From: Candidatus Accumulibacter necessarius
GTDB lineage: Bacteria > Pseudomonadota > Gammaproteobacteria > Burkholderiales > Rhodocyclaceae
Assembly (NCBI GenBank): GCA_017302435.1
Contig: JAFLDL010000045.1
Span: 1 to 35,942, forward strand
Length of the DNA stretch: 35,942 bases
Direction: 5' to 3'
Made by a program: the position numbers and the translations under genes. Every line of letters begins with the position of its first letter. The first letter of the stretch is position 1. Of this stretch, positions 8,011-34,311 are shown one piece after another. The notes beneath the pieces were generated by a model that was not told the DNA's origin, searched no databases, and worked only from the letters and a program-made list of their open reading frames with translations.

Positions 8011-8116
8011 GCATGGATCGTGCCAAAAATATAAAACGCCATTTTATTAGGGGCCTACGACGCGAGCTCGGGAAATGGACCGGGCCGGGTACAAGTGACT
8101 GTAAGAAAAATCGACA
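8011..8116 (-). promoter_or_regulatory. Sigma-54 promoter and upstream activator motif of eboD
   Basis: Read on the minus strand, TGGCACGATCCATGCTT holds the -24/-12 pair GG (8024-8023) N10 GC (8012-8011), close to the sigma-54 consensus TGGCAC-N5-TTGC. Upstream, TGTCGATTTTTCTTACA (8116-8100) matches the motif found at the three PEP-CTERM modules. The gap between the motif end and the GG is 76 nt, the same as at those modules (76, 75, 76). Sigma-54 promoters need an enhancer-binding activator; in PEP-CTERM systems PrsR has this role. Binding by PrsR here is inference. Confidence 0.8.
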
Positions 8117-8232
8117 CTCCCGGCAGCGTCCTGCGGTTCTCAGATGCTGGGACCGGCAGAACCCTGTGTCAACGCGTCGGCGTTTGAGTCGGCCCTGAAG
8201 CCCGCGACTGGGCGACAGCGAGTTTCCGAAGA

Positions 8233-8262
8233 TTGACCGTCGCTCGGGCGAGAAGCTATACT
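8233..8262 (+). promoter_or_regulatory. Sigma-70-type promoter of the methyltransferase operon
   Basis: TTGACC (8233-8238), an 18-nt spacer and TATACT (8257-8262) form a good housekeeping promoter on the plus strand. Transcription would start near 8269 and give a leader of about 160 nt before the methyltransferase at 8431. The same two hexamers with the same 18-nt spacing occur upstream of the ebo operon at 24424-24453. Confidence 0.6.
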
Positions 8263-8430
8263 CGCCGCGCTGCCAACGAAGCCTGATCCAGCCTTTTTCC
8301 GTCATGAGGTCGCCAGACACCCGCTGTCGATGCCCGATCAGGCTCACGAGGCCATCCTCGAGAGCGGGCGGCCGGTCGCTACCATCGGCCCGTGGACGGG
8401 TTTAATGCGGGGTCTATTCGGAGTCGCTCA

Positions 8431-9423
8431 ATGCTGAAACCTGATCGCATCATCGGAATGACGAGTTCCTTCTTCGATTCCTGCGTGCTGTTTACCGCCT
8501 CGGATCTCGGCGTCTTCGCCAGCCTGGCTGAGTCGGGCCCGATGGATTCAGCCAGCCTGGCCTCGGCACTGCAACTCGATCAGCGGGGAACACGTCTGCT
8601 GCTCGATGCCTGCGTGGCGCTGGAACTGCTCAACAAGGAGGCGGAGATCTACTCGAATACCCCGGAGACCGCCATCTTCCTCGTGCCCGGATCGCCCGGC
8701 GATCTGTCCGCGGCGATTCGCTACAATCGCGACGTCTATGCCGCCTGGGGCAAACTCAATACGCTGGTCAGGACCGGCAAACCCGTTGAGAAACCGGAGT
8801 TCCACCTCGGCCAGGATGCGGAACGGACGCGAACCTTCGTTCTCTCCATGCATCATCGGGCGCTGGCCATCGGTCGGGCAGTCCTCGAAGAACTCGATCT
8901 GACCCAGTGCAAAACCCTGCTTGATGTCGGCGGTGGTCCCGGCACCTACTCCGTCCTGATTGCACGACGGCATCCGGCCATCGCCTGCACCGTTCTCGAC
9001 CTGCCGGATGTGGTCAAGGTGGCGGAAGAACTTATCGAGCAGCAGGGCTGCGCGGCACAGGTCAGGACGCTTGCCGGAGACTATCGCAGCACGCCTTTCC
9101 CTGCCGGCAACGATGTCATCAACTTCTTTGGCATGTTCCACCAGGAGTCGCCGGACAGCATCCGTGCGCTTCTTGGCAAGGCCTATGCCGCCCTGAAGCC
9201 CGGCGGCATCGTCAATGTGATGGACATGATGACCGACAGCAGCCACACCAGGCCCAAGTTCAGCGCGCTGTTCGCGGTCAATATGGCGCTGACCACCGAA
9301 AACGGCTGGGTGTTTGCCGATTCGGAATTGACCGGCTGGCTGCAGGAGGCCGGGTTCACCGACATCCAGGTGAAACCCTTGCCGCCGCCGATGCCGCACA
9401 GTTTCGCCACCGCCCGCAAGTAG
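8431..9423 (+). CDS. SAM-dependent O-methyltransferase
   Basis: A 330-residue class I methyltransferase of the plant-type/acetylserotonin O-methyltransferase-like family, which methylates hydroxyl groups of small molecules. The N-terminal winged-helix dimerisation domain (about 10-90, TASDLGVFASLAESGPMDSA...) precedes the Rossmann domain. The SAM motif LLDVGGGPGTYS is at 163-174, VLDLPDV (188-194) carries the acidic residue that binds ribose, and a probable catalytic His237 lies in GMFHQESPDSIRALL. The ATG at 8431 has GGAG 9 nt upstream; a start 13 codons earlier is less supported. It leads a likely operon with a YdjY-domain protein and a PT-repeat protein, next to eboD, which suggests (but does not prove) tailoring of the same metabolite. 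Confidence 0.85.
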   Translation: MLKPDRIIGMTSSFFDSCVLFTASDLGVFASLAESGPMDSASLASALQLDQRGTRLLLDACVALELLNKEAEIYSNTPETAIFLVPGSPGDLSAAIRYNRDVYAAWGKLNTLVRTGKPVEKPEFHLGQDAERTRTFVLSMHHRALAIGRAVLEELDLTQCKTLLDVGGGPGTYSVLIARRHPAIACTVLDLPDVVKVAEELIEQQGCAAQVRTLAGDYRSTPFPAGNDVINFFGMFHQESPDSIRALLGKAYAALKPGGIVNVMDMMTDSSHTRPKFSALFAVNMALTTENGWVFADSELTGWLQEAGFTDIQVKPLPPPMPHSFATARK

Positions 9424-9495
9424 TCGGCGAGACGCCGCTCCCTTTCGTCTGCCGAACAGGCAACACCCCCCGAGTTTACGCGACCAGGAGACCCC

Positions 9496-10212
9496 GTGAA
9501 GCCCGTCAGAATCGCCGTCAGCGCACTCCTGCTCAGCGGCGTCATCGCCTCCCTCTCATGCCGCGCTGCCGATGCCGCGGCGCCGGCAGCGCCCGCCGGC
9601 CCGGGGGACGCAGGCGCGCAGCTTGCCCCGGTCGAAACCGCCAAGGGCGTTTTTCGAATCGGTGACGTCCTGATCAACAAAGCCGAGCGCTCGATCAGCT
9701 TTCCCGCCGAAGTCAACATGGACAAAGGCATGCTCGAGTACCTGCTCGTGCACCGCAAGGGAAAAACGCATGAAAGCCTGTTGCGAACATCGGTCGAGCC
9801 CTACAACCTGAAGGTCGCTTTTCTCCTGCTGGGCTTCGAGCCGACGGACCAACCGCTGGCCGGGCAAGGCGATCCCGCAACGCCCAGCGGTGAGCGCGTC
9901 CGCATCACCCTCAGCGCGGATACCGGCTCCCGCAAGGAGGTCATCCCGGTTGAAAAATGGTTGATCAACCGCTTCGGCGGTGTTGCGCGAGACGTCGAAC
10001 CCCTGAACTGGGTCTATAGTGGGTCTATTCTTCATCAGGGCCGCTTCATGTCCCAGGAAACCGGCCAGATCGTCGCGATCTGGCATGACCCGGTCGCGAT
10101 GATCGACAATGCGTCGCAGGGAGGCCACAGCAACGCCATCTGGTTTGTCAAAGAGGGAACTGCGCCCGCCGTCGGAACCCCGGTCCAGGTGATCATCACC
10201 CCTGCCAAGTAA
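9496..10212 (+). CDS. Secreted YdjY-domain protein
   Basis: A 238-residue exported protein starting at GTG, with CAGGAG 5 nt upstream. A signal peptide (about 1-26) is followed by an Ala/Pro-rich linker and a YdjY-type domain: GDVLINKAERSISFPAEVNM, GMLEYLLVHRKGKTHESLLRT, NLKVAFLLLGFEP, NWVYSGSILHQGRF and GQIVAIWHDPVAMIDN. YdjY domains occur in periplasmic proteins, often in gene neighbourhoods with iron-sulfur or secreted-protein genes; the biochemical role is not known. It lies 72 nt after the methyltransferase and 20 nt before a PT-repeat protein, so it likely works with that secreted partner. Confidence 0.75.
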   Translation: MKPVRIAVSALLLSGVIASLSCRAADAAAPAAPAGPGDAGAQLAPVETAKGVFRIGDVLINKAERSISFPAEVNMDKGMLEYLLVHRKGKTHESLLRTSVEPYNLKVAFLLLGFEPTDQPLAGQGDPATPSGERVRITLSADTGSRKEVIPVEKWLINRFGGVARDVEPLNWVYSGSILHQGRFMSQETGQIVAIWHDPVAMIDNASQGGHSNAIWFVKEGTAPAVGTPVQVIITPAK

Positions 10213-10232
10213 CCCCCCCACTGGAGATTCTC

Positions 10233-11408
10233 ATGCGAAAGTACTCGGTCCTGTTGCCTCTAGCTGTGATGGCGTTCCTGCCCCTGGGCTCGATCGCCGC
10301 CGAAAAGGTCGTCGCACAAACCACGCCGGACCTCTCCCTGCGAGTCGAGGTCGAGAATTCGATCGGCAAGGGGCTCACCTGGCTGGCTGGCAAGCAGAAC
10401 CCGGAAGGTTACTGGGCCCAAAGCGAGCACCCGGCGGTGACCGCGTTGATCCTTACCGCTTTCCAGGGCGACCCCTCGAAGTTCTACCAGAAGAAGTACC
10501 AGAAGAACATCAAGGCGGGCTATGACTATCTGGCCACCAACGTCAAGCCTGACGGCAGCATCTACAGCAAGGGCCTGCCAAACTACAACACCGCGATTTC
10601 GATGACGGCATTCATGGTGGCGAACAACAAGGCCTACGAGCCGATCCTGAAGAATGCTCGCAAGTATCTGATCAGCCAGCAGGACGACTTCGGCGAGAAG
10701 GGGATGGGCGATCATCCGCTGGATGGCGGCGTCGGCTACGGCGGCCGCGGTGCCAAGAATTCCGACATCAACAACACCACCGCCGCCCTCGAGGCGCTGT
10801 ACTACACCCGCTACCTGAAGAGCGACGTGGCCAATGATCCGGACGCCAAGGACCTCAACTGGAAGGCCGCCGCGCAGTTCATCACGCGCAGCCAGAACCT
10901 GCCGGGCCAGAATGACCAGCCCTGGGTCAGCGGCGATGCCGAAAACAAGGGCGGCTTCATTTACTTCCCCGAGAACAGCAAGGCGGGAGAAATGCCGGTT
11001 GCCGATGGCAAGGTGGCTTTCCGCTCCTATGGCAGCGCGAGCTACAACGGTCTGCTAAGTTTCATCTACGCCCAGATGGACAAGAACGATCCGCGCGTCG
11101 TCGCCGTCAAGGAATGGCTGACCCGCAACTACTCGCTCAACGAGAACCCGGGCCTCGGCAAGGATGGGCTGTTCTATTACTACCACACGATGGCCAAGGC
11201 GCTCACCATTGCCGGCATCGATACCCTGGTGATGAAGGACGGCAGCAAGGTCAACTGGCGTCAGGAACTGGCCAAGCGTCTGCTCAATCTGCAGAATGCC
11301 GACGGTTCGTGGGTGAACAAGGAGAGCGCCCGCTACATGGAAAGCGACCCCCATCTGGTCACCGCCTACGCGACGCTGACCATGGAAATCCTCTATCGCG
11401 GCCTGTAA
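10233..11408 (+). CDS. Secreted prenyltransferase/squalene-oxidase-repeat protein
   Basis: A 391-residue exported protein (signal peptide about 1-22) made of about six alpha/alpha repeats of the prenyltransferase/squalene oxidase type. Examples: GLTWLAGKQNPEGYWAQS, GYDYLATNVKPDGSIYSKG, ARKYLISQQDDFGEKG, VKEWLTRNYSLNENPGLG and LLNLQNADGSWVNKE, each followed by a helix with T/S-A-L pattern. This is the alpha/alpha-barrel fold of terpene cyclases and protein prenyltransferases, but the cyclase DxDD acid motif and the zinc ligands of protein prenyltransferases are not visible. A binding or structural role is therefore as likely as catalysis. The start has GGAG 7 nt upstream. Unlike the three later paralogues it has no calcium-repeat tail. 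Confidence 0.8.
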   Translation: MRKYSVLLPLAVMAFLPLGSIAAEKVVAQTTPDLSLRVEVENSIGKGLTWLAGKQNPEGYWAQSEHPAVTALILTAFQGDPSKFYQKKYQKNIKAGYDYLATNVKPDGSIYSKGLPNYNTAISMTAFMVANNKAYEPILKNARKYLISQQDDFGEKGMGDHPLDGGVGYGGRGAKNSDINNTTAALEALYYTRYLKSDVANDPDAKDLNWKAAAQFITRSQNLPGQNDQPWVSGDAENKGGFIYFPENSKAGEMPVADGKVAFRSYGSASYNGLLSFIYAQMDKNDPRVVAVKEWLTRNYSLNENPGLGKDGLFYYYHTMAKALTIAGIDTLVMKDGSKVNWRQELAKRLLNLQNADGSWVNKESARYMESDPHLVTAYATLTMEILYRGL

Positions 11409-11413
11409 GTCTC

Positions 11414-11450
11414 TGACGGCCCGGAGCGATCCCGCCAGCTCCGGGCGTCA
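11414..11450. terminator. Hairpin between convergent genes
   Basis: TGACGGCCCGGAGC (11414-11427) pairs with GCTCCGGGCGTCA (11438-11450), a 13-bp stem with one bulged G, 6 nt after the PT-repeat stop and just before the radical SAM stop. It could end both convergent transcripts, though it lacks a U-tract. The right arm is nearly repeated at 11460-11476 (GCTCCCGGCGTCAGCCC), which encodes the last residues of the radical SAM protein. Confidence 0.5.
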
Positions 11451-11456
11451 GCCCAA

Positions 11457-12698
11457 CTAGCTCCCGGCGTCAGCCCGATCGACGTCGCACTCCAGTTGCA
11501 TCGCGGCACAGCGGTGGCACATGAAGCCGTCCCAGATGTGCAGCCCGTGTTTCCGGCGGATGGCGTGACAGCCCAGGTTCAGGGTTTCGAAGTACTGGTG
11601 CAGGCGGTCAAGATAATCGGGATGATCGCGTCCGCCGACCGGCCAGTACAGCGAGTAGATCGGAATGATGCCGCGCGAGCACAGGGCTTCGGCGCCTTCC
11701 AGTGCCAGCGCTACCGCCTGCTCTCCGGACATCCCGTGCTCGGGTTCCAGTTCGATGCCACCGACCATCGCGCTATAGACATGCCCCGCCCCCCAGAGCG
11801 CCACAGCCTGCTCGAGCGCGCGGATCCAGCGGTCATAGCCGACGAAATGGTGCTTGCCCGGAGAGATTTTGGCGAACAGGGCTTCTGACCAGACCTCCAG
11901 GTTGAAGCAGACATTGTCGACCAGTTTCTCGGTGTGCAATTCCTTCAGGATATCCTCGGGCAGGGCGCCGGAGCCGCACGACACCGGAATTCGCCGCTGA
12001 TTGACCGCCTGCACCTGCCGGGCCACTTCCAGGTAACGGCGGCCCTCCTGACGCCAGTCCGGCAATGCCCCGCCGACCAGGTAAAGGTGGCGGATGTCGC
12101 TCTCGGCCAGCACGGCGCGCAGGGTTTCCTGCATGCGGGCATAGGTTTGCTCGGGCAAGGAAACCTGGCCCGTCTTCTGGCCGAGATGCGCCACCCGTTC
12201 GTCAGGCGCGCCGTAGGCGCAGAAGGCGCAGCGCATCGAAACGCCGTCGATCTTGTGCAGAAAATACTCGCAACCGGGCGCCAGGTTGATCACCGCCATG
12301 TCACCAAGGAGTTCGATGCCGGTCCGGGCCATCGGAAAGCCGTCGCTGGTCTCGGCCTGCATCCAGCGCGGCAGCGGCGTAAACTGCACCGGCACCGGCA
12401 CCGCTGGCTCGCCGTCCTTGCACAGGCGGTAGCCCGCCTCCCGGTCGCCGCTCACCACCCAGGGCGAGTCACCGTTGCCCTTGATGCGGATCAGCGTGTC
12501 ATCCTCGAGGGTCAGCAGGTAGGGAATGCTGGCCTTGCCAGTGCCGGTGGGATCGGGTTCGCCCGGCTGAAAGCGGTAGGGATAATAGTTAGGGAAGGCA
12601 TGCTCGGCTGCCTTGCCCAGCGCCGCGCTGTAGCGGATCCCGTGAAACATCATCTCCAGCTTGAAGCGAGCGGAAGGGGGTAAAGTGCTGAGCGTCAT
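11457..12698 (-). CDS. Radical SAM protein with CX13CX2C cluster motif
   Basis: A 413-residue protein with a radical SAM-like core. The probable iron-sulfur ligands are Cys143, Cys157 and Cys160 (PGCEYF...MRCAFCAYG), spaced CX13CX2C rather than the common CX3CX2C. Supporting core features are the following strand HLYLVGGALPDW (about 204-215), which has the GGxP-type turn, and later strands IPVSCGSG and NVCFNLEVWSEALFAKISPG. The N-terminal 130 residues form a separate domain. The C-terminus has three more cysteines (394, 397, 404, in MCHRC...EC) that could hold an extra cluster. Reaction and substrate are unknown. It is convergent with the PT-repeat gene and stands alone on its strand. Confidence 0.7.
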   Translation of the reverse strand: MTLSTLPPSARFKLEMMFHGIRYSAALGKAAEHAFPNYYPYRFQPGEPDPTGTGKASIPYLLTLEDDTLIRIKGNGDSPWVVSGDREAGYRLCKDGEPAVPVPVQFTPLPRWMQAETSDGFPMARTGIELLGDMAVINLAPGCEYFLHKIDGVSMRCAFCAYGAPDERVAHLGQKTGQVSLPEQTYARMQETLRAVLAESDIRHLYLVGGALPDWRQEGRRYLEVARQVQAVNQRRIPVSCGSGALPEDILKELHTEKLVDNVCFNLEVWSEALFAKISPGKHHFVGYDRWIRALEQAVALWGAGHVYSAMVGGIELEPEHGMSGEQAVALALEGAEALCSRGIIPIYSLYWPVGGRDHPDYLDRLHQYFETLNLGCHAIRRKHGLHIWDGFMCHRCAAMQLECDVDRADAGS

Positions 12699-12785
12699 GC
12701 TGCGCCTCGCTATCCAGGGTTAACGGTTGCTGTTAGAATCGCTGACGCTTTGCGTTGAGATGACTGCGGGAAACCGGCCCACCCC

Positions 12786-13397
12786 ATGCCTGCGCGTTTG
12801 CGTCTGATTATAGTCGTTTTGCTGGCCGTGCTGATTCCGGTCGTGCCCTTCGTCCTGCTCGGCGAATTGCCGGGCGAGCGCTGGCTGTCGGCCGCCGACG
12901 ACAACGCGCTGCAGTTCGCGTTGACCGGCGCCGGTTTGCTCGCCGCCGACGCGCTGCTGCCGGTCCCTTCCAGCATCCTCGGCACGCTGCTCGGCGCCCG
13001 CCTCGGTTTCCTCGCCGGCGCGCTCTCGGCCTGGCTTGGCATGCTCGCCGGCAATCTCCTCGCCTACGCCGGCGGCCGCTTGTTGTTGGGCCGCCTGCGG
13101 ACGCCCCTGCCGGAGACGCCGACCCTGACGGTGCTATTTCTCAGCCGACCGGTGCCGGTGCTGGCCGAAGCCGCGGCTATCGCCGCGGGGGCGGAACGCG
13201 TCGCGTTCTGGCCCTTCGTCGGCGCCTGCGCCGCCGGCAACGCGATCTACGCGGTGGTACTCGCCGGCAATGGCGCCGCTCTGCTGCCCGGCGCGCTGGC
13301 CGGTCCCGGCCTGCTCATCCCGATGGCCCTGCCGGCAGTCGCCTGGTGGCTGTGGCGGCGAAGAGCGCGCACCGTCAAGGTCGCAACATCCGACTGA
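12786..13397 (+). CDS. VTT/DedA-type membrane protein
   Basis: A 203-residue inner-membrane protein with an N-terminal helix (about 6-27), a re-entrant region ALLPVPSSILGTLLGARLGF followed by AWLGMLAGNLLAYAGGRLL (about 58-98), a second conserved element LFLSRPVPVLAEAAAIAAGA (about 116-135) and two C-terminal helices, ending in a basic tail. This is the VTT (SNARE-associated) domain layout of the DedA/TVP38 superfamily; members act in membrane lipid or undecaprenyl-phosphate translocation and in membrane homeostasis. The exact substrate cannot be told. It is followed 23 nt later by a small DUF3303-like gene, probably in one transcript. Confidence 0.75.
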   Translation: MPARLRLIIVVLLAVLIPVVPFVLLGELPGERWLSAADDNALQFALTGAGLLAADALLPVPSSILGTLLGARLGFLAGALSAWLGMLAGNLLAYAGGRLLLGRLRTPLPETPTLTVLFLSRPVPVLAEAAAIAAGAERVAFWPFVGACAAGNAIYAVVLAGNGAALLPGALAGPGLLIPMALPAVAWWLWRRRARTVKVATSD

Positions 13398-13420
13398 CCA
13401 ATCCTCCTGGAGACACCCAC

Positions 13421-13687
13421 ATGTTCTATATGCTGATCAGCCGCACCCGCCCCGGCCTCACCGCCGACGATTTCGCGCAACTTGGCAAGCTGGCGCAGGG
13501 CTTCTACGATGGCATCCCACCCGGACTGGTGCTGCACAAGGACTGGGCGGCCAACGACGGATCGCGCACCTTCGCGCTGCTCGAAACCGAGGACCCGGCC
13601 CTGCTGGAAGAGATTCAGGCGCCGTTTCGGCCCTATGTCGATATGGAACTCGTGCCGGTAACGCCGGTGACCGGGTGGACCAAGTAG
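13421..13687 (+). CDS. DUF3303-like small protein (dimeric alpha-beta barrel type)
   Basis: An 88-residue protein starting at MFYMLISRTRPG with CTGGAG upstream. An upstream frame extension begins inside the membrane-protein gene and is rejected. The pattern is a first strand (FYMLISRTRPG), a helix (DDFAQLGKLAQGFYDG), a second strand with LHKDWAANDGSRTFALLETED, a helix (LLEEIQAPFRPYV) and a last strand DMELVPVTPV. This resembles DUF3303 and the wider dimeric alpha-beta barrel family. The function is unknown. It is likely co-transcribed with the VTT protein. Confidence 0.6.
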   Translation: MFYMLISRTRPGLTADDFAQLGKLAQGFYDGIPPGLVLHKDWAANDGSRTFALLETEDPALLEEIQAPFRPYVDMELVPVTPVTGWTK

Positions 13688-13931
13688 CGCCGTTCGGATC
13701 AAGGACACTCTGCATCGAAAGATAACGACGCAGTCACGCCGGTACCGTACCTGATCGAGCATTTCGCCCACCTGCTGCCTGAAGTGGCCGCGCTGGTCTC
13801 GGTGATCTTGGCGACTCCATTGGTATAACCATGCGGGTCATTGTGTCCCGCTGGCCGATGATGATCGGCGCCCCTTGGAATTACCTCTACTGTCCCTTTA
13901 TTTCCTTTAATTCCATTGATTCGTTGACAAC
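13688..13931. other. Intergenic stretch before the toxin-antitoxin pair
   Basis: No gene with a plausible start was found. A short open stretch ending at about 13829 (reading VPYLIEHFAHLLPEVAALV) has no start codon or ribosome site and may be a remnant. GC content drops after 13870 (AT-rich run of CCTTTATTTCCTTTAATTCC), as often seen before toxin-antitoxin promoters. Confidence 0.4.
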
Positions 13932-13977
13932 TTGACGAGACGAGCTGCCAGTGGATAATGTAGTACTCAACACTACA
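13932..13977 (+). promoter_or_regulatory. Promoter and palindromic operator of the Phd-VapC operon
   Basis: TTGACG (13932-13937), a 16-nt spacer and GATAAT (13954-13959) make a clear promoter. The inverted repeat TGTAGT-N7-ACTACA (13959-13964 and 13972-13977) overlaps the end of the -10 and the expected start site. This is the usual place for the operator to which a Phd-type antitoxin (with its toxin) binds for autorepression. Confidence 0.7.
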
Positions 13978-13991
13978 AACTGGTGGCCTTT

Positions 13992-14228
13992 ATGAGAATC
14001 GTTTCAGCAGGGGATGCCAATCGCCAGTTTTCCAGAGTCCTACGTGAGGTTGCCCAAGGTGAGGTGTTTACCGTACTCTCGCGTGGCAAACCAGTGGCGA
14101 CGATTTCACCGGCACGTTCAGACGACGTTCAACGCCAGGGAGCGAGGCGCAACCTGCTCGAACGACTGCGCCAGAAAGAAGCCATCGGCGCACGAGGCTG
14201 GATGCGTGAAGAGCTCTACGAGCGCTGA
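13992..14228 (+). CDS. Phd/YefM-family antitoxin
   Basis: A 78-residue protein starting at MRIVSAGDANRQFSRVL; a GTG three codons upstream is also possible. The N-terminal Phd/YefM DNA-binding fold is visible: SAGDANRQFSRVLREVAQGEVFTVLSRGKPVATISP (about 4-40), with the typical 'GxPVAxI' strand. The C-terminal part (RRNLLERLRQKEAIGARGWMREELYER) is the flexible toxin-binding segment. It neutralises the PIN toxin encoded two bases downstream and should repress the operon through the palindrome at 13959-13977. Confidence 0.85.
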   Translation: MRIVSAGDANRQFSRVLREVAQGEVFTVLSRGKPVATISPARSDDVQRQGARRNLLERLRQKEAIGARGWMREELYER

Positions 14229-14230
14229 CG

Positions 14231-14674
14231 ATGCGAGTCGCACTCGATACCAACATCCTGGCCTATGCCGAAGGGGTTGGCGACGAGCTTCGTTGCCGCA
14301 TGGCCTTCCAACTCATCGAGCGCTTGCCGGCCAATCGGGTTCTGCTGCCCGCTCAGACGCTCGGCGAACTCGCCCGTGTGCTCACGGGAAAAGCCGGGCA
14401 ATCTCCGGCAGCTGCCCGTGAGGCAATTCTCGCCTGGGCCGACAGCTTCGAGGTAGCTGACTCGACGTGGCCGTCGTTCCAGGCCGCTTTCGACCTGACT
14501 GTTGACCATCGACTGTCGATCTGGGATGCGGTGATTCTTGCGGTCGCTGCCGAAAACCGCTGCCGCCTGCTCCTGAGTGAAGATTTCCAGAATGGATTTG
14601 TTTGGCGCGGCGTGACAGTGGTCGATCCTTTTGCCTCTCCAGCCTCAACGTTGCTCGTAGACTTGCTGCTCTGA
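14231..14674 (+). CDS. vapC: VapC-type PIN-domain toxin
   Basis: A 147-residue PIN-domain ribonuclease starting at MRVALDTNILAYAEG, two bases after the antitoxin stop. The acidic metal-binding residues are present: Asp6 (LDTN), Glu46 (LGELARVL), Asp99 (IWDAVILAVAAE) and Asp118 (LLLSEDFQ). VapC toxins cleave RNA, usually tRNA or rRNA, when the antitoxin is lost. All catalytic positions are intact, so the toxin should be functional. The C-terminus runs into an AT-rich repeat region that borders a transposase remnant. Confidence 0.88.
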   Translation: MRVALDTNILAYAEGVGDELRCRMAFQLIERLPANRVLLPAQTLGELARVLTGKAGQSPAAAREAILAWADSFEVADSTWPSFQAAFDLTVDHRLSIWDAVILAVAAENRCRLLLSEDFQNGFVWRGVTVVDPFASPASTLLVDLLL

Positions 14675-14728
14675 AGGAAATCGCGGCCGTCAACTGGCGC
14701 AATTGGCAATTCGGCAATTCGCAATTCC

Positions 14729-15166
14729 AATTCGGGGACAGTATATTTAACTCTACCCACAGTGCCGATCAGAAGGAAACGCGCTACTCGCCGGTTTCCG
14801 ATCTCAGCTTTGGACCGCGCTTCTGCGGCCACAGCCTGCGGTCGAGCTGCGCTCACTGATCGCACTTCGCAGCCCATCGGAATGCTGCGGCACCATGATC
14901 AGGTGGACATGGTTCGGCCATCAGGCAGTAAGCCCAGACCTCCGTCCCGGTACGCGCGCACGAAGCTGACCTCAGCGCAAGTACTCGCGACAATCGTCCT
15001 CGGAGAAAAAGTCTGCTGGCACCGGTTACCCCGCTGTGTCACGTGATGCGGACAGCCCGATGCCACTACCCTCGTAATTCTCGCCACCGTCGTCGTCCTG
15101 GCCGTGTTTGTCATTCCGGGGAGTTGAATATACTGTCCCCGAATTTCAATATACTGTCCCCGAATT
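14729..15166. mobile_element. Degraded REP-associated element with 19-nt inverted repeats
   Basis: A perfect 19-nt sequence, AATTCGGGGACAGTATATT, at 14729-14747 reappears as its exact reverse complement AATATACTGTCCCCGAATT at 15127-15145 and again at 15148-15166. Between them lies a broken transposase of the REP-associated tyrosine (Y1/HUH) type. Outside, both ends carry short AATT-rich repeats (14699-14730, 15162-15190). The layout suggests a transposase gene or its REP-like flanks that inserted next to vapC and decayed. Confidence 0.7.
14850..15114 (-). pseudogene. REP-associated tyrosine transposase, fragmented
   Basis: The minus strand encodes ARITRVVASGCPHHVTQRGN (from about 15084), the conserved N-terminus of REP-associated tyrosine transposases. 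The frame breaks at a T-run (A-run 15006-15010 on the plus strand), where one base fewer would be needed to continue as FFSEDDCREYLR. After a second break the frame resumes as VWAYCLM, then, past an extra G, as PNHVHLIMVPQHSDGLRSAI, which holds the HUH motif HVH. Most of the middle and all of the C-terminus, with the catalytic tyrosine, are missing. It is therefore inactive. Confidence 0.75.
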
Positions 15167-15194
15167 TCGAATTTCGAATTTCCAATTTCCTGAC

Positions 15195-15300
15195 TGTCGG
15201 AAAATCTTACAGTTCAGTTCGGTGTCTCTGCAGAGCCACTTCAGCCTTTTATCTAAATCAATTACATAGAAGTCGAAGAGCAATTAGGCATGAAACGTGC
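15195..15300 (+). promoter_or_regulatory. Sigma-54 promoter and activator motif, module 1
   Basis: TGTCGGAAAATCTTACA (15195-15211) lies 76 nt upstream of GG (15287-15288) N10 GC (15299-15300). The -24/-12 core reads AGGCATGAAACGTGC, a fair sigma-54 match. Transcription would start near 15312, at the beginning of a conserved leader, about 93 nt before the PT-repeat start codon. The same arrangement occurs at modules 2 and 3 and at eboD. Confidence 0.75.
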
Positions 15301-15313
15301 GTGGTTTTTTGGG

Positions 15314-15373
15314 AGCGCCGGTTACGTGCCCTGGCGGAGCGACGACGCGGGAACGCTGCCCATCAGGGCGGTC
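15314..15373 (+). ncRNA. Conserved 5' leader element, module 1
   Basis: A roughly 60-nt sequence between the sigma-54 start site and the PT-repeat gene, shared with modules 2 and 3. A first hairpin GCCGG...CCTGGC (about 15317-15335) has an 8-nt loop. A second, CTGCCC-ATCA-GGGCGG (15356-15371), is present in all three copies. The segment GACGACGCGGGAAC between them is invariant in modules 1 and 2. A competing pairing between the upstream GGCGG and CTGCC is weaker here than in the other copies. It matches no riboswitch class that I can name. Confidence 0.5.
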
Positions 15374-15404
15374 TTGAAAAGAAAGATTTGAGAGGGTACT
15401 TGTC

Positions 15405-17042
15405 ATGAAACAAAGAAGCATCACCAAGGCGCTGGTCGCCGCGTTCCTTTTCGCGGGCGCGACGGGCGCACAGGCCGATTACCAGGCCTTCAAGGACGAC
15501 GTGAACGCCGCCATCGACGATGGCATTCAATACCTGCGCGCCAACAACCGCTTCACCAACGGAAATGAAGGCACAGGCCTAGCTCTGCTCGCTTTGCTCG
15601 AGAAGGAAACCATCCCGGCGGGCTACAACGGCTTGTCGGCCAGTGACCAGCTTCTGGCGCAGAATGCGGCCTGCATCCTGATTGACAGCGGCTCCTTTGG
15701 CGACCGGGCCGGCTTCTACTCCTACTACGACGGCCAGGTCATGATGGGGCTCTCAGTCTATCTCGCCACCGGCGGCCCAGACACACCGACCGCGTCGGCC
15801 GGCTACAACTGCACGGGACGTTCGGCGCGGGCCACCATCGACAAGGTCGTCGATCGCACCCTGCTCGCGCAATCCCCGGAGGCGCCCGCCTACCAAGGTC
15901 GGGGCGGCTACTGGGATTACACCGGGTACGGCCAAGACTCCTCCACCACCCAGCTGACGCTTGCCGGACTCTCCGCCGCCAAGGGGTTCTACGCGGGCAT
16001 GGGCGAGTCGCTGGACAAACCTCGCCTCCCGGGGATCACCACCGCCCTCAACAAGACCTCTCTGGCCTACTCTCTCAACGGAAAGCAGAACACCGGCGCG
16101 CAGTTCGATACCTGTGGCGCCGGTTGCTTCGGGCACGGCTATCAGTCCAATTACGGCGCCGCCAACAACAGCTCGCAGCAGACTGCCTCGGGAACGTGGG
16201 GCCAACTGGCGGGCGAGGGCAAGACCGTCAACGACCCGGCCATCCAGGGCTATCTGCGTTGGTTGCAGAACGCCTATAGCTACACCACGAACATCCGTCC
16301 GGATAGCTGGCCACCCGCCTACTTCTACTATCTATGGTCGTCTTCCAAGGCCTATAACATTATCGAGCATTCCGGTGTAGCCCCGGCACTGGGCAACATC
16401 GGCCCGACGAGCATCGGGACTCTGCCGGTCGTCGCGGGTCGGGAAGAGAACAGGGTTCCGGCCAACGATACCCGTCCCGCGCCACGAGGAGTGGGGGCCG
16501 CAGGCTACTACAACGGCACGCCCAAGGGTTGGTATTACGACTACGCTTATCGGCTGATGTCGCTACAGAACGCCGCCGGCCTATTCCCGAACCCTAATGG
16601 TTCGTGGAACTCGGGCTACGCGGATCAACCCTACGCCATCCTGGTCCTGCAGCGCTCCCTCGGCGGTGCCTGCGCCGACAGCGACGGCGACGGCGTGTGC
16701 GATAACGTGGACAACTGCCCGAGCAAGGCTAACCCGAACCAAGACGACAAGGACAAAGACGGTGTCGGCGATGTTTGCGACAACTGCCCGACCGTACCGA
16801 ATCCCGATCAGAAGGACAGCAACGGCAACGGCGTCGGCGACGTCTGCGAGGCAACGTGCGACGTGGATAACGACGGCGACGTCGACCAGAACGACCTCAG
16901 CCTGATCAGCAGGAATCGCGGCAAGCTGCCCCCGGGCATTTATGACACGAACAAGAGCGGCAAGGTTGACCCCGCCGACGTCAAGTTCTGCATCCCGCTG
17001 TGCACACGGCCCAACTGCGCCACCTCGCTGACTGCCCCGTAA
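15405..17042 (+). CDS. Secreted PT-repeat protein with TSP3 and dockerin-like tail, module 1
   Basis: A 545-residue exported protein. Signal peptide 1-24 (MKQRSITKALVAAFLFAGA...AQA). Residues about 30-420 form a prenyltransferase/squalene-oxidase-repeat-like helical domain, with GGYWDYTGYGQDSSTTQLTL as the best QW-type segment and AYFYYLWSSSKAYNII. From about 424, DSDGDGVCDNVDNCP and two more units are thrombospondin type 3 calcium repeats. Then CDVDNDGDVDQNDLSLI and DTNKSGKVDPADVKF form two dockerin-like EF-hand loops, before a Cys-rich end (CIPLCTRPNCATSL). No PEP-CTERM motif is present, so it is released or held by a partner; the co-transcribed PEP-CTERM protein is the obvious candidate. 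The start has GAGAGGG upstream. Unlike its two paralogues it lacks the Cys pair in the YWCY...C segment. Confidence 0.82.
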   Translation: MKQRSITKALVAAFLFAGATGAQADYQAFKDDVNAAIDDGIQYLRANNRFTNGNEGTGLALLALLEKETIPAGYNGLSASDQLLAQNAACILIDSGSFGDRAGFYSYYDGQVMMGLSVYLATGGPDTPTASAGYNCTGRSARATIDKVVDRTLLAQSPEAPAYQGRGGYWDYTGYGQDSSTTQLTLAGLSAAKGFYAGMGESLDKPRLPGITTALNKTSLAYSLNGKQNTGAQFDTCGAGCFGHGYQSNYGAANNSSQQTASGTWGQLAGEGKTVNDPAIQGYLRWLQNAYSYTTNIRPDSWPPAYFYYLWSSSKAYNIIEHSGVAPALGNIGPTSIGTLPVVAGREENRVPANDTRPAPRGVGAAGYYNGTPKGWYYDYAYRLMSLQNAAGLFPNPNGSWNSGYADQPYAILVLQRSLGGACADSDGDGVCDNVDNCPSKANPNQDDKDKDGVGDVCDNCPTVPNPDQKDSNGNGVGDVCEATCDVDNDGDVDQNDLSLISRNRGKLPPGIYDTNKSGKVDPADVKFCIPLCTRPNCATSLTAP

Positions 17043-17054
17043 CCTTCTCTGCCT

Positions 17055-17075
17055 CCCCCCGGCCCCGCCGGGGGG
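17055..17075 (+). terminator. Intercistronic GC hairpin, module 1
   Basis: CCCCCCGGC (17055-17063), loop CCC, GCCGGGGGG (17067-17075): a perfect 9-bp stem in the gap between the PT-repeat and PEP-CTERM genes, with no U-tract. It is repeated at the same place in modules 2 and 3. It may protect the upstream message or cause partial termination, setting the ratio of the two proteins. Confidence 0.6.
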
Positions 17076-17109
17076 GATTACAGGACTCAACCTTTAAGGA
17101 GCTTCTCTC

Positions 17110-17835
17110 ATGAAAAAGACTCTTCTCGCCCTGGCCTTGGCGGTCGCCGCCGGCGGCGCCCAGGCCATTGGCGCCAACCCGATAACCCTGGATGCCCTGA
17201 TCAATGGCGGCAGCATCAGCGCTGGCGACAAGCTGTTCAGCAATTGGTCGCAGACATTCTTCGGCGCGTCCAATCCTCAGGGTGCAATCGACCCCACCCA
17301 AATCCTCGTGACACCACTTTCCGACGGCGGAGACAACCCCGGACCGGGCATCAATATCGACTTCAGTAACCAGATGACGGTGACCGGCGACGGTGTCTAC
17401 GCCTATCGCGATTTCACGATCGAATTCAACGTATCGACGATCGGGGACAAGCAGATCAAGGACAACTCGCTCGACTTCGGCGATCTTCCCAGCGTCCTGA
17501 CGTGGACCGTTGACGGCCTCAACGACTTGGGCATCGCTGTCGAGGAGTGGGTCTACGACCTCCAGGGCAACCAGCTGGCCCACAAGTTCATCGAATTCAG
17601 CGTATTGGACGACGTGCAGACTCGCAACTGGCCAGACTCGGCGGCGTTCGCGCCACAGGACGAGATCCGGGTCAAGAAGAACTTCCTTGTCTGGTCCGTC
17701 GATGACACGGACACGGCCACCTTGGGTGGGATCAAGCAGCGCTTCTCGCAGCAGGACATCCCCGAGCCGGCATCGCTCGCCCTGCTGAGCCTGGGTCTGG
17801 TTGGCCTGGGTGTTGCTCGCCGGCGCCGGAGCTGA
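17110..17835 (+). CDS. PEP-CTERM surface protein, module 1
   Basis: A 241-residue exported protein with signal peptide 1-19 (MKKTLLALALAVAAGGAQA) and strong AAGGAG ribosome site. The body (about 20-215) looks beta-rich: ISAGDKLFSNWSQTFF, DGGDNPGPGINIDF, MTVTGDGVYAYRDFTIEFNV. The C-terminus is a complete PEP-CTERM signal: the PEP triplet in DIPEPASLALL, a hydrophobic helix (LLSLGLVGLGVA) and a basic tail (RRRRS). Exosortase recognises and cleaves this signal to anchor or release proteins linked to exopolysaccharide; no exosortase gene lies in this window. It follows the PT-repeat gene by 67 nt in one transcript. Confidence 0.92.
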   Translation: MKKTLLALALAVAAGGAQAIGANPITLDALINGGSISAGDKLFSNWSQTFFGASNPQGAIDPTQILVTPLSDGGDNPGPGINIDFSNQMTVTGDGVYAYRDFTIEFNVSTIGDKQIKDNSLDFGDLPSVLTWTVDGLNDLGIAVEEWVYDLQGNQLAHKFIEFSVLDDVQTRNWPDSAAFAPQDEIRVKKNFLVWSVDDTDTATLGGIKQRFSQQDIPEPASLALLSLGLVGLGVARRRRS

Positions 17836-17854
17836 TCCCGCCGTTGTTCGAAGT

Positions 17855-17881
17855 GCGGCGCGCCAGCTTCGGGCGCGCCGC
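17855..17881 (+). terminator. Terminator-type hairpin, module 1
   Basis: GCGGCGCGCC (17855-17864) pairs perfectly with GGCGCGCCGC (17872-17881), 20 nt after the PEP-CTERM stop. A U-tract is absent, but the same hairpin follows the stop codon in modules 2 and 3. The rest of the gap up to 17975 holds no gene. Confidence 0.7.
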
Positions 17882-17975
17882 CCGCGCTGCCGGCTTGTCC
17901 GGTCCCTGCCTGGCCCTGATCCCGACCCCGCGCCGCAGCCGCCACCTCCCACTGGGCGTTTGAAGAGCAAAGAAA

Positions 17976-18080
17976 TGTCGGAAAATTTTACACTTGCCCG
18001 GGCGCCGCTTCGGACGGAATTTGACTTGCTCGTTAAATCAAACGCATGGATAGCTATGGCGAGCCAGGTGCGAAACTTGC
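17976..18080 (+). promoter_or_regulatory. Sigma-54 promoter and activator motif, module 2
   Basis: TGTCGGAAAATTTTACA (17976-17992) lies 75 nt upstream of GG (18067-18068) N10 GC (18079-18080); the core reads AGGTGCGAAACTTGCTT. Transcription would start near 18092, at the conserved leader and about 93 nt before the start codon. Confidence 0.8.
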
Positions 18081-18093
18081 TTGGGATACCGGG

Positions 18094-18153
18094 AGCGCCG
18101 GTTACGTATCCGGGCGGTGCGACGACGCGGGAACACTGCCCACGAGGGCGGAC
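18094..18153 (+). ncRNA. Conserved 5' leader element, module 2
   Basis: Copy 2 of the leader RNA. GGGCGGTG (18112-18119) can pair with CACTGCCC (18134-18141) as an 8-bp stem around CGACGACGCGGGAA. Alternatively CTGCCC (18136-18141) pairs with the downstream GGGCGG (18146-18151) around loop ACGA. The two structures use the same CTGCCC and exclude each other. The leader after this element differs from modules 1 and 3. Confidence 0.5.
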
Positions 18154-18184
18154 TTCAGCATCAGGGACAGAAAGGGTCAATACA

Positions 18185-19795
18185 ATGAAATCAACTTTGA
18201 AGATAAGTGCGCTTGCGGCCGCCGTTTTACTGACGGTGGGCAGCACCGCTAACGCCGTGGTTACCAACTTCAGCACAGACGTCGCCGCATCGATCGACAA
18301 GGGGCTCGTCTGGCAGGATGCCAACGGCGCGTACACCGGCAGCGCCGGGGATGCCAGCGGGTTGTCGCTGCTGGCTCTGCTCGAGAAGCGCCAGGGTGCC
18401 GATCCCAATGCCCTGAGCCAGGGCTACGCCGCTGCGTCGGTGGCCGACAAGGCACGCATGGACAGTGCCGTGGCTTTCATTCTGGCTAGCCACGTGCCGG
18501 CAGGCTTTTATGCCTACCGTGACGGGGCGGACATGATGGCCCTGTCGGTCTACCTGCTAACCGGCGGCCCCAATCCGGGTGTTCCGGCGGCCATCAATAC
18601 CATCTTCGATCGGACCATTCTCAACCAGGGTGGGCACGGTTATTGGTGCTACACGGACGGTAGTTGCCTGGACTCCTCCACCACCCAATTGGTCGTGGCG
18701 GGCTTGGCGTCAGTGCGCAGTGTTTATTCCTCCGTGGCCCATGCCGACGCTGCCAGGCTGGCTCAGCTGAATACAGCGGCTACCGCGGCCAAGAATGCCT
18801 ACGTGGCCAATGGCCTCGCCGGGGAAGTCTGCTCGGCGGGCGGGATACTGACCGCGACGGAGCGTGGCCATGGCTATAACGTCGGATCGTGCAACTCCCC
18901 CCAACAGACTGCCTCCGGAACCTGGATTCAACTCGTTGGCGGGTCCACGCTGAACGACCCCAGCATTCAGGGCTACCTGGAGTGGCAGCGCAACCGCTAC
19001 CGCTATACGAGCACGGGCCCGTCCGACTCAGACGGTTGGCCGTCCTATTGGTATTACCTGTGGAGTTCCTCCAAGGCCTACTCTTTCATCGAGGATTCCG
19101 GCGCGACGCCGATCCCTCCCACGAACCTCACCCCGGCCAAGATCGGCATTCTGCCACCCGGCGATGCGCCAGCCTTTGCCGCTCGCGAAGTCCATCTCGA
19201 TTGTGCTGCCATACCGCGCGTGCCGCTGTTCGGTGCCGGTGCTGCCGGCTATTACTGCGATCCGGCTGAGCCAAAGAGGGTTTACTTCGACTACGCTTAC
19301 ACGATCCTGACTCACCAGGTGGCGAGCGGCCAGTACATCGACTTTGGCGGTACGAGCCGCTGGAACGATTATTCGGCCCAGGCCTATGCCCTGCTCGTGC
19401 TCCAGCGCTCGGTTGGTGGTGGCTGTATCGACAGCGACGGCGACGGCGTGTGCGACTCCGTCGACAACTGCCCAGCCAAGCCCAACCCCGACCAGAAAGA
19501 TACTGACGGCGACGGCGTCGGCGATGTCTGCGACAACTGCCCGACCGTGCCGAATCGCGATCAGAAGGACAGCAACGGCAACGGCGTCGGCGATGCGTGC
19601 GAGGCCACGTGCGACGTGGATAACGACGGAGATGTCGACCAACTCGACCTCAGCCTGATCAGCAGGAATCGTGGCAAGCCGGTGCCCAGCATCTATGACA
19701 CGAACAAGAGCGGCAAGATCGACCCCGCCGACGTCAAGTTCTGCGTCCCGCTGTGCACACGGCCGAACTGCGCCACCTCGCTGACTGCCCCGTAA
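18185..19795 (+). CDS. Secreted PT-repeat protein with TSP3 and dockerin-like tail, module 2
   Basis: A 536-residue exported protein starting at MKSTLKISALAAAVLLTVGS (signal peptide 1-24), with AAAGGG upstream. The open frame continues 128 codons further upstream but would cross the sigma-54 promoter, so the later start is right. The helical PT-repeat-like domain (about 28-410) includes GYWCYTDGSCLDSSTTQLVV, where two cysteines may form a disulfide, and YWYYLWSSSKAYSFIE. TSP3 repeats begin near 415 (DSDGDGVCDSVDNCP), followed by the dockerin-like pair DVDNDGDVDQLDLSLI and DTNKSGKIDPADVKF and the same Cys-rich end. The signal peptide differs from modules 1 and 3 while the C-terminal 120 residues are almost identical, a mosaic pattern. 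Its partner is the PEP-CTERM gene 66 nt downstream. Confidence 0.82.
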   Translation: MKSTLKISALAAAVLLTVGSTANAVVTNFSTDVAASIDKGLVWQDANGAYTGSAGDASGLSLLALLEKRQGADPNALSQGYAAASVADKARMDSAVAFILASHVPAGFYAYRDGADMMALSVYLLTGGPNPGVPAAINTIFDRTILNQGGHGYWCYTDGSCLDSSTTQLVVAGLASVRSVYSSVAHADAARLAQLNTAATAAKNAYVANGLAGEVCSAGGILTATERGHGYNVGSCNSPQQTASGTWIQLVGGSTLNDPSIQGYLEWQRNRYRYTSTGPSDSDGWPSYWYYLWSSSKAYSFIEDSGATPIPPTNLTPAKIGILPPGDAPAFAAREVHLDCAAIPRVPLFGAGAAGYYCDPAEPKRVYFDYAYTILTHQVASGQYIDFGGTSRWNDYSAQAYALLVLQRSVGGGCIDSDGDGVCDSVDNCPAKPNPDQKDTDGDGVGDVCDNCPTVPNRDQKDSNGNGVGDACEATCDVDNDGDVDQLDLSLISRNRGKPVPSIYDTNKSGKIDPADVKFCVPLCTRPNCATSLTAP

Positions 19796-19807
19796 ACGTC
19801 TCTGCCT

Positions 19808-19828
19808 CCCCCCGGCCCCGCCGGGGGG
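19808..19828 (+). terminator. Intercistronic GC hairpin, module 2
   Basis: CCCCCCGGC (19808-19816), loop CCC, GCCGGGGGG (19820-19828), identical in stem and loop to modules 1 and 3, between the PT-repeat stop and the PEP-CTERM ribosome site. Confidence 0.6.
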
Positions 19829-19861
19829 CATCACGGATTCAACCTTTAAGGAGCTTCTCTC

Positions 19862-20581
19862 ATGAAAAAAACTCTTCTCGCCCTGGCCCTGGCGGTTGCC
19901 GCCGGCGGCGCCCAGGCCGTTGACACACAAACTACCCTGACCGCTTTGTTAAATGGCGGCACCATCACCGCCGGCGACAAGCTGTTCAGCGATTGGTCGC
20001 GGATATTTTTCGACTCGTCTGACCCTGCTCGCACACTCAATACCGACAATGTCGAGGTGTCGGCACTCAACGACGGGGGCTTGAACCCCGGTCCCGGCCT
20101 GAAGTTCAACATCCTGAATAACGAATTCAGCGTCACCGGTAACGACCTCTATGCCTACCTCGACTTCACGTTCGGCTTCAAGGTGAGCGTCCTCGATCCG
20201 AACCTGCGCGTAAAGGATAATTCGTTGCAGATGGACAGTGCATTGCTCACCAATTTCGGCGACAACGGATCCTTCATTCTTGAGACCATCGGGACCGCAG
20301 CCGGTCTGGATGACCTCGGAACAAAGGATGTCGAGTTCAGCTATCTTGAAGGATCGGGAATAACCCAAAGGACAAACGATAGTGCCGACTTTCCACCACA
20401 AAGCGAGATCTGGGTGACCAAGAACATTCTCGTCTGGGCCAGTGGCGCTAATGAGCAGGCAGCCCTCTACGGTTTCAGCCAGCGCTTCTCCCAGATTGCG
20501 GACATCCCCGAGCCGGCATCGCTTGCCCTGCTGAGCCTGGGTCTGGTCGGCCTGAGTATCGCTCGCCGGCGCCGGAGCTGA
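19862..20581 (+). CDS. PEP-CTERM surface protein, module 2
   Basis: A 239-residue paralogue of the module 1 PEP-CTERM protein, with the same signal peptide (MKKTLLALALAVAAGGAQA), AAGGAG ribosome site and PEP-CTERM tail (DIPEPASLALLSLGLVGLSIARRRRS). The body shares ITAGDKLFSDWSRIFF, NDGGLNPGPGLKF and FSVTGNDLYAYLDFTFGFKV with its relatives but then diverges, with an insertion-rich segment LQMDSALLTNFGDNGSF. The conserved ends and variable middle suggest a common sorting and partner-binding frame with changed surface. Anchoring by an exosortase outside this window is expected. Confidence 0.92.
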   Translation: MKKTLLALALAVAAGGAQAVDTQTTLTALLNGGTITAGDKLFSDWSRIFFDSSDPARTLNTDNVEVSALNDGGLNPGPGLKFNILNNEFSVTGNDLYAYLDFTFGFKVSVLDPNLRVKDNSLQMDSALLTNFGDNGSFILETIGTAAGLDDLGTKDVEFSYLEGSGITQRTNDSADFPPQSEIWVTKNILVWASGANEQAALYGFSQRFSQIADIPEPASLALLSLGLVGLSIARRRRS

Positions 20582-20598
20582 TCCCGCCGTTGTTCGAA

Positions 20599-20629
20599 GT
20601 GCGGCGCGCCAGCCTCTGGCGCGCCGCAC
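20599..20629 (+). terminator. Terminator hairpin, module 2
   Basis: GTGCGGCGCGCCAG (20599-20612) and CTGGCGCGCCGCAC (20616-20629) form a perfect 14-bp stem with a 3-nt loop, followed by TTGCTTT. It stands 17 nt after the PEP-CTERM stop and is the strongest of the three module terminators. Confidence 0.8.
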
Positions 20630-20720
20630 TTGCTTTCGGGTGGCCGGTCCCGGCCTTGCCCTGATCCCTACCCCGCGCCGCAGCCAACGCCTCCCACTGG
20701 GCGTTTGCAGAGCAAAAAGT

Positions 20721-20826
20721 TGTCGAAGAACTTTACACTTGTGTCGCGTGCCGCTGGGGACTGATTCGGACTTCGTCCGTAAATCAATCACCTGCGTGTC
20801 TTTGATGAATCAGGCACAAACCTTGC
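20721..20826 (+). promoter_or_regulatory. Sigma-54 promoter and activator motif, module 3
   Basis: TGTCGAAGAACTTTACA (20721-20737) lies 76 nt upstream of GG (20813-20814) N10 GC (20825-20826). The core AGGCACAAACCTTGCTTT is the best sigma-54 match in the plus strand of the window. The leader RNA begins about 12 nt later. Confidence 0.82.
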
Positions 20827-20839
20827 TTTAGCAACTGCA

Positions 20840-20899: not shown

Positions 20900-20927
20900 T
20901 TGAAAACAATTTGAGAGGGTACTCACT

Positions 20928-30021: not shown

Positions 30022-30025
30022 GCCG

Positions 30026-30928: not shown

Positions 30929-30930
30929 CC

Positions 30931-32528: not shown

Positions 32529-32529
32529 G

Positions 32530-34307: not shown

Positions 34308-34311
34308 AGCA

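Follow-up and report, generated by a model that had tools for sequence, protein, structure and literature searches.

A PrsR-type box and a sigma-54 core ahead of eboD suggest a regulatory link between Ebo and exosortase systems in Candidatus Accumulibacter necessarius

Introduction

A composite promoter of proteobacterial PEP-CTERM genes was described by Haft et al. in 2006 (PMC1569441) as a 17-nucleotide (nt) motif ending in TTTACA, a spacer (mean 62.8 nt, standard deviation 10.6, range 32–92), and then a sigma-54 motif. The motif pair was found upstream of 99 of 167 such genes, PrsR was proposed as the activator, repeats of the motif were noted, and a few sites lay ahead of other genes. Transcription of pepA in Aquincola is RpoN-dependent (PMC9850573), and all five predicted targets of DVUA0057, a regulator predicted for PEP-CTERM genes, were enriched in vitro by DNA-affinity-purified chip analysis (PMC3333781). 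The present analysis concerns a promoter of this type ahead of eboD, which encodes a sugar-phosphate cyclase of the Ebo family, on a contig of Candidatus Accumulibacter necessarius (JAFLDL010000045.1, assembly GCA_017302435.1). The window is the whole stretch of DNA that was analysed, 35,942 nt in length.

Yurchenko et al. (PMC5133447) suggested cyclitol synthesis from sedoheptulose 7-phosphate as the role of EboD and prenylation as that of EboC, and an EboC homologue farnesylates (PMC9235831). The ebo genes were tied to the export of a scytonemin precursor by Klicki et al. (PMC6282210), where eboD, in the sections cited here, was not analysed. Scytonemin requires an exosortase, and the scy locus contains PEP-CTERM proteins (PMC12188702). 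Both the Ebo product and the final acceptor of exosortase-processed proteins are unsettled in the cited portions of this literature. Among open-licence papers, none was found that linked EboE, eustigmatophyte or sugar phosphate cyclase with PEP-CTERM. Among those on PrsR, RpoN or sigma-54 together with PEP-CTERM or on ebo clusters, no title or abstract gave a link to ebo, the Nostoc paper (PMC12188702) apart.

Promoters of eboD and the PEP-CTERM modules

Four exact matches to the box TGTCGR-N6-TTACA, each followed by a GG-N10-GC core, were located where the original prediction had placed them, one upstream of eboD and one upstream of each of three modules encoding an MtsC-like protein and a PEP-CTERM protein (Table 1). 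These were the only pairs of box and core in the window when it was scanned with matrices from the genome's own sites, and three weaker box-like matches each lacked a core. With up to two mismatches, 15 boxes were counted, including the 4 exact ones, while 100 shuffles gave a mean of 6.9 and a maximum of 12. The offset, defined from the first T of the box to the first G of the core, was 92 for eboD and 92, 91, and 92 for modules 1–3, which corresponds to 74–75 bases between box and GG (75–76 in the original prediction). The sites thus combine the 17-nt motif and the sigma-54 motif within the published spacer range, and the predicted eboD promoter has the architecture of the PEP-CTERM box as described in PMC1569441.

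The predicted transcript start of eboD, from the core position, was near 8000. The open reading frame (ORF) extended to 8007, and the conserved start was most likely 7779, not 7908 or 8007, because the first residue of the orthologues corresponds to window residue 44 and the preceding GGGAAAGCC recurs in L042, the nearest of them. This start gives a predicted leader of about 220 nt.

The promoters of modules 2 and 3 were 78% identical across 261 bp, and that of module 1 was 82–87% identical to them across 84–87 bp. The three are paralogous, and their equal spacing therefore partly reflects one event. The upstream region of eboD was similar to the other fetched sites of the genome only at the box (19–21 bp, blastn), and the idea that it had been copied recently from a different PrsR promoter was rejected on this comparison.

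With regard to RNA elements in the leaders, the sole Rfam match in the window (E ≤ 1), at 14188, was far below its gathering score, and the four leader stretches folded no better than shuffles (z −1.1 to 0). The module leaders (15311–15404, 18091–18170, and 20837–20927) have in common a conserved stretch around GCGACGACGCSGGAACRCTGCCC. Among loci L001–L038 of the same genome it was seen at the three module leaders only, with predicted folds not above shuffles.

The box set of the genome

In the genome (4.56 Mb, 88 contigs), 18 exact boxes were found and the reversed control pattern occurred once. A sigma-54 core followed 17 of the 18 boxes; the core at L003 has AG for GG, and the box at L002 had none. 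Nine boxes precede a single gene whose product, taken from the first ORF and read by eye, has a PEP-CTERM-like tail. The remaining cored boxes precede the three modules, which were profile-tested, eboD, and four others, namely a LuxR-type regulator (L024), a 127-residue protein (L022), and two sites without a clear gene (L021 and L030). The same genome holds one exosortase and a locus with PrsR (732 bits, cut-off 502.6), PrsK (851 bits), PrsT (897 bits), and an EpsB2-type transferase (514 bits). Across 27 genomes of the same genus, 15–29 boxes were counted in each, with 0–4 in controls.

The LuxR-type regulator behind a PrsR box and sigma-54 core (L024:1479-2914) was weakly EpsA-like, below cut-off, and its box makes a regulatory cascade possible. 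The 127-residue protein (L022:5517-5900) begins with MSETSSERNEQRRKLLKRAAVAPG and had no NCBIfam match.

The 17 offsets of the genome were 67, 81 (four), 82 (five), 91, 92 (four), 93, and 103. At 59 loci from other genomes, the same genus included, a core accompanied 32 of 65 boxes (two boxes counted twice in overlapping loci), as opposed to 11 of 258 background windows, and the offsets were mostly near 70, 79–82, 91–92, 101–105, and 113–114. The classes near 70, 81, 92, 103, and 113 are about one helical turn apart. Phasing, tested against a flat null with one class dominating, was supported by R 0.83 (n = 15), by R 0.69 (n = 29, the 32 values from other genomes minus one repeat and the out-of-range 59 and 148), and by R 0.64 with the modal class removed (n = 21, p 0.0002). 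Such steps would suit an activator fixed to one face of the DNA. Two of the six ebo promoters of relatives described below (offsets 67 and 95) fit these classes poorly. The constant geometry claimed for the four promoters was real as a measurement but did not mark a special gene set; the 76-nt spacing was rejected in that role, since 91–93 is one class among several and the module promoters are duplicates.

Ebo clusters of relatives

The extended ebo cluster, in which genes for a methyltransferase, a YdjY-domain protein, and a cyclase-like protein accompany the ebo genes, was collinear in relatives that belong to other families and phyla. The sample comprised 17 stretches of 13–20 kb around eboD from other genomes, and the rule required a box with at most one mismatch and a core score of at least 9, 60–115 nt apart. 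Six stretches contained such a pair (L190, L191, L192, L194, L196, and L206), where 0.08–0.23 were expected in the 0.32 Mb examined, the rule giving one match per 3.80 Mb of Markov sequence and one per 1.40 Mb of reversed sequence. All six matches were upstream of eboD on the same strand, and none was on the opposite strand. At the level of sequence, this supports the claim that an Ebo-type sugar-phosphate cyclase gene stands under a PrsR/sigma-54 signal.

The original prediction would have been refuted if orthologues of eboD never carried the motif, and it withstood this test in a modified form. The 1 kb before eboD was without box and core in all 52 loci compared, 4 of them with less than 1 kb of sequence on that side, and a position directly before eboD was rejected for the relatives. 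In the extended clusters eboD is an internal gene, and any box stands at the start of its row, as in the six stretches above.

In five of the six, the box was located 3′ of a BatD match, at 0.1–0.6 kb in four and at 1.4 kb in L206; no Bat genes were found in the L194 stretch. A second box lay 150–360 nt further upstream in L190, L191, and L206. Forward ORFs led from the box through to eboD in L190, L191, L192, L194, and L206, with a PEP-CTERM gene and a giant gene among them. The PEP-CTERM proteins of all five rows exceeded the TIGR02595 cut-off, and PKD domains were matched by Pfam in the giants of L042, L045, and L047, which are from the same genomes as L206, L191, and L190, respectively. 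In L044/L196, the box stood immediately ahead of the methyltransferase, YdjY, cyclase, and eboD genes with no PEP-CTERM gene intervening. In the interval from box to eboD, five of the six stretches had no uncovered reverse ORF of at least 100 residues, and L206 had one over its 545-nt gap. The sharing of one row by PEP-CTERM and ebo genes, like the presence of further ebo genes in the window, goes beyond the original prediction.

Gene neighbourhoods that combine PEP-CTERM and ebo were seen repeatedly, in genomes with the labels Thermodesulfobacteriota, Myxococcota, Nitrospirota, and Pseudomonadota. In Citrifermentans bremense R1 (L193:3654-11010), XrtA, two further genes, PrsK, and PrsR directly precede the Bat/cyclase/eboD row, and box and core were not found in that stretch. 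Box and core were present in six of nine genomes with PrsR over its cut-off and in none of eight in which it was not found (Fisher p 0.009), PrsR having been searched in some genomes only and incompleteness of metagenome-assembled genomes possibly hiding it.

Two exact tandem PrsR-type boxes without a sigma-54 core were seen on the minus strand at L197:12207-12239 (strand-flipped coordinates), just 3′ of eboC in a Geobacter ebo cluster.

Gene content of the window

The features of the window are collected in Table 1. EboD was distinguished from AroB, whose model gave 212.5 bits under a cut-off of 305, and it is a non-AroB sugar-phosphate cyclase co-clustered with eboB, eboE, and eboF, as judged by synteny in relatives. 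A second gene of the genome, at C16, was 35% identical to EboD. Of the 121 genomes in the relatives set, 4, the source genome included, matched eboD at E ≤ 1e-80, and none of 27 other genomes of the genus did. At the level of the order, 19 of 399 genomes matched at E ≤ 1e-90, again with the source genome, and 16 of these were of the classical type (48–53% identical). In a tree of 70 EboD rows, the window's EboD grouped in a 17-member clade (support 99/98) together with rows that carried the labels Thermodesulfobacteriota, Myxococcota, Nitrospirota, Thiobacillaceae, Hydrogenophilales, and Methylococcaceae. The gene was likely acquired by lateral transfer.

Table 1. Features of the window, with positions, strands, and supporting evidence
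Feature	Position	Strand	Evidence
GspG, GspF, GspE row (type II secretion/pilus-like), downstream of eboD	6270-2831	-	family profiles
eboD, sugar-phosphate cyclase, 406 residues	6559..7779	-	NF004852 557.7 bits, cut-off 333; tree
sigma-54 core TGGCACGATCCATGC of eboD	8011..8025	-	GG 92 nt after box start
PrsR-type box TGTCGATTTTTCTTACA, 5′ of eboD	8100..8116	-	exact match; matrix score 30.0
methyltransferase of extended ebo cluster	8431..9423	+	PF00891/PF08100; 80% identical in L044, L047
YdjY-domain protein	9496..10212	+	NF040466 135.8 bits, cut-off 50
squalene/hopene-cyclase-like region protein	10233..11408	+	PF13243 31.9 bits; TIGR01787 below cut-off; conserved beside eboD
PrsR-type box, module 1	15195..15211	+	exact match and matrix
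sigma-54 core, module 1	15286..15300	+	offset 92
module 1 thrombospondin-type-3-repeat protein	15405..17042	+	PF02412; partial NF047638 (MtsC) match, 66 bits, cut-off 350
module 1 PEP-CTERM protein	17110..17835	+	TIGR02595 25.1 bits, cut-off 16
PrsR-type box, module 2	17976..17992	+	exact match and matrix
sigma-54 core, module 2	18066..18080	+	offset 91
module 2 MtsC-like protein	18185..19795	+	likely ATG 18185, ORF 17801-19795; partial NF047638
module 2 PEP-CTERM protein	19862..20581	+	TIGR02595 26.0 bits
PrsR-type box, module 3	20721..20737	+	exact match and matrix
sigma-54 core, module 3	20812..20826	+	offset 92
module 3 MtsC-like protein	20928..22634	+	partial NF047638
module 3 PEP-CTERM protein	22702..23430	+	TIGR02595 25.4 bits
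weakly GspC-like protein	23536..24222	+	NF041515 18.7 bits, below cut-off 150
small protein at EboG place, 103 residues	24608..24919	+	conserved between eboD and eboB in relatives; named after EboG of PMC5133447 by position
eboB, TatD-like hydrolase	24906..25709	+	PF01026 34.9 bits
eboE	25709..26812	+	NF035939 428 bits, cut-off 250
eboF, type I phosphodiesterase	26787..28160	+	PF01663 199.9 bits
eboC-like, UbiA superfamily	28164..28871	+	NF035940 95.8 bits, below cut-off 250; PF01040
Bat-like operon (AAA ATPase, two VWA proteins, TPR protein, BatD, others)	29029..35706	+	conserved beside ebo in relatives

A solitary eboD was rejected, as the remaining ebo genes are in the same window. The last gene of the ebo row was named EboC-like only, its match to the UbiA superfamily holding where the curated EboC cut-off was not reached. 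When compared with L190, the cluster was rearranged, with eboD inverted beside the methyltransferase, YdjY, and cyclase genes, three duplicated modules, and the Bat genes at the far end. The TIGR02595 cut-off was exceeded at the C-terminus in all three modules, and the thrombospondin-type-3-repeat protein of module 1 is presumably at the cell surface. The cyclase-like protein has a signal-peptide-looking start by eye. A protein with the same weak NF041515 match as the GspC-like protein (25.1 bits) is flanked by the giant gene and the methyltransferase in L047/L190, and the two had no mutual tblastn match at 1e-6.

A sigma-70-like sequence, TTGACC-N18-TATACT, was present on the plus strand at 8233–8262, before the methyltransferase row, and at 24424–24453, before the row from the eboG place to eboC. 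A strong terminator-like stem was located at 20600–20628, between module 2 and the module 3 promoter, and the scan of the plus strand up to 29100 gave no other terminator-like site. In L044, two eboB-like genes (8837-9763 and 10162-10956), 42% and 90% identical to that of the window, flank a small eboG-like gene.

Discussion

On these data, exosortase-sorted surface proteins and an Ebo-dependent envelope metabolite are quite probably co-expressed under PrsK, PrsR, and RpoN. In the proposed mechanism, the histidine kinase PrsK would activate PrsR, an NtrC-type activator. PrsR would bind TGTCGR-N6-TTACA at about −116 to −100 relative to the transcript start and switch on the RpoN (sigma-54) polymerase sitting at the GG-N10-GC core, so that eboD would be turned on along with the MtsC-like/PEP-CTERM modules. 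In its ancestral form the extended cluster (methyltransferase, YdjY, cyclase-like, eboD, and eboG/B/E/F/C) was probably a single transcription unit, with a PrsR/sigma-54 promoter at its head and often a PEP-CTERM gene among its members. In the window it was rearranged, with eboD inverted, separated, and still behind a PrsR/sigma-54 promoter of its own. Through the shared switch, production and export of an Ebo-dependent small molecule would coincide with the laying down of the exosortase-sorted surface proteins. This arrangement suggests that the Ebo and exosortase systems work together at the cell surface, where the Ebo molecule might be used by the sorted proteins.

Several observations weigh against such co-expression. 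The box and core rule was fixed only after an initial scan of the stretches, and the counts are not independent, since the genomes are related and their clusters are partly inherited. Terminator-like stems lie between the surface genes and the YdjY, cyclase, and eboD genes in two of the six stretches (L190 and L191 only), and L206 shows a gap of 545 nt with a possible reverse ORF from its giant gene to YdjY. Three genomes (G472, G478, and G479) carry PrsR and the extended cluster, yet their stretches had no box and core. The box and PrsR also track imperfectly, because G469, in which PrsR over the cut-off was not found, still had 7 boxes genome-wide (control 0), and G475, with PrsR present, had 4 boxes as opposed to 8 in the control. 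Box and core were absent from all 16 classical ebo stretches (48–53% identical), of which two hold almost no upstream sequence and four came from genomes with PrsR over the cut-off; control of ebo clusters in general by PrsR was thus not supported. In the window, neither the methyltransferase row nor the eboG–C row has a PrsR box of its own, and sigma-70-like sequences lie ahead of both. The eboD gene may therefore be the sole ebo gene under direct control here, and transcription of the eboG–C row may come from module 3 or from the sigma-70-like sequence at 24424.

One alternative is that the PEP-CTERM and other surface genes are the sole meaningful targets and the ebo genes are bystanders, the window's eboD having kept or caught a PrsR promoter at the break-up of the cluster with no functional tie. 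The rearranged cluster of the window would agree with it, as would the five of six stretches in which a PEP-CTERM gene stands after the box and before eboD, and the terminator-like stems of L190 and L191. However, no PEP-CTERM gene separates the box from the ebo genes at the window's own eboD or in L044/L196, and the neighbourhood recurs under the labels of four phyla. This explanation was considered unlikely.

Another alternative accepts the signal before eboD and takes the GspG/GspF/GspE row as its main product. That row is on the same strand, about 290 nt from eboD to the GspG-like gene, but eboD is the first gene and intact, and the GspE, GspF, and GspG proteins of the window were unmatched in the loci and stretches of relatives that were searched, so that little probability was given to this reading. 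It was judged very improbable that the eboD box is read by a different NtrC-family activator. Eight further regulators of the genome scored at least 297 bits with the PrsR model, under its cut-off, but boxes of this type also stand ahead of PEP-CTERM genes, and G275, without PrsR, has no boxes. A chance match was regarded as next to negligible, since the box and a near-consensus core occur jointly at a preferred spacing, the composite rate is about one per 1.4–3.8 Mb, and the link recurs in relatives, even though one copy of the reversed pattern is present in the genome.

Comparison with known systems

Co-expression through PrsK, PrsR, and RpoN would bring a metabolite pathway into a regulon that is known from surface proteins. 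The genome resembles those with the PEP-CTERM box regulon in that PrsR, PrsK, PrsT, and an exosortase are also present. The difference is in the target, as the cited parts of Haft et al. (PMC1569441) name no metabolite pathway and the gene here is eboD. The common promoter type and the gene rows across several phyla offer a direct, testable tie between Ebo and exosortase, and Citrifermentans bremense R1 is an isolate in which the exosortase/PrsK/PrsR locus and ebo lie in one stretch.

The window also resembles the eboG variant of the ebo operon, as described in PMC5133447, with eboB, eboE, eboF, an eboC-like gene, a small gene at the eboG place, and eboD clustered or nearby. In contrast to that operon, eboD is detached and inverted here, and the methyltransferase, YdjY, and cyclase-like genes, the Bat-like operon, and the PrsR-type/sigma-54 promoters are additional.

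A broader and rather doubtful reading, drawn by analogy, is that Ebo and exosortase form one envelope module in phototrophs and non-phototrophs. An Ebo lipid-like carrier would export a small molecule to the periplasm, exosortase-sorted (PEP-CTERM) and PKD/thrombospondin-type proteins would finish it, hold it, or be modified by it, as with ScyD/E/F and scytonemin, and bacteria with PrsR would switch the whole module by one two-component system. In that case, the contribution of ebo would be a product or acceptor that serves some of the exosortase substrates.

In the Nostoc scytonemin system (PMC12188702 and PMC6282210), the PEP-CTERM proteins ScyD, ScyE, and ScyF, Ebo, and an exosortase (cyanoexosortase B) serve one extracellular metabolite. 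That system, in the portions of the papers cited, is cyanobacterial, has a known product, and is described with other sigma factors and no PrsR/RpoN box, whereas the present locus suggests that Ebo and exosortase are also linked at the level of regulation, in non-phototrophs, which would be a second tie between them.

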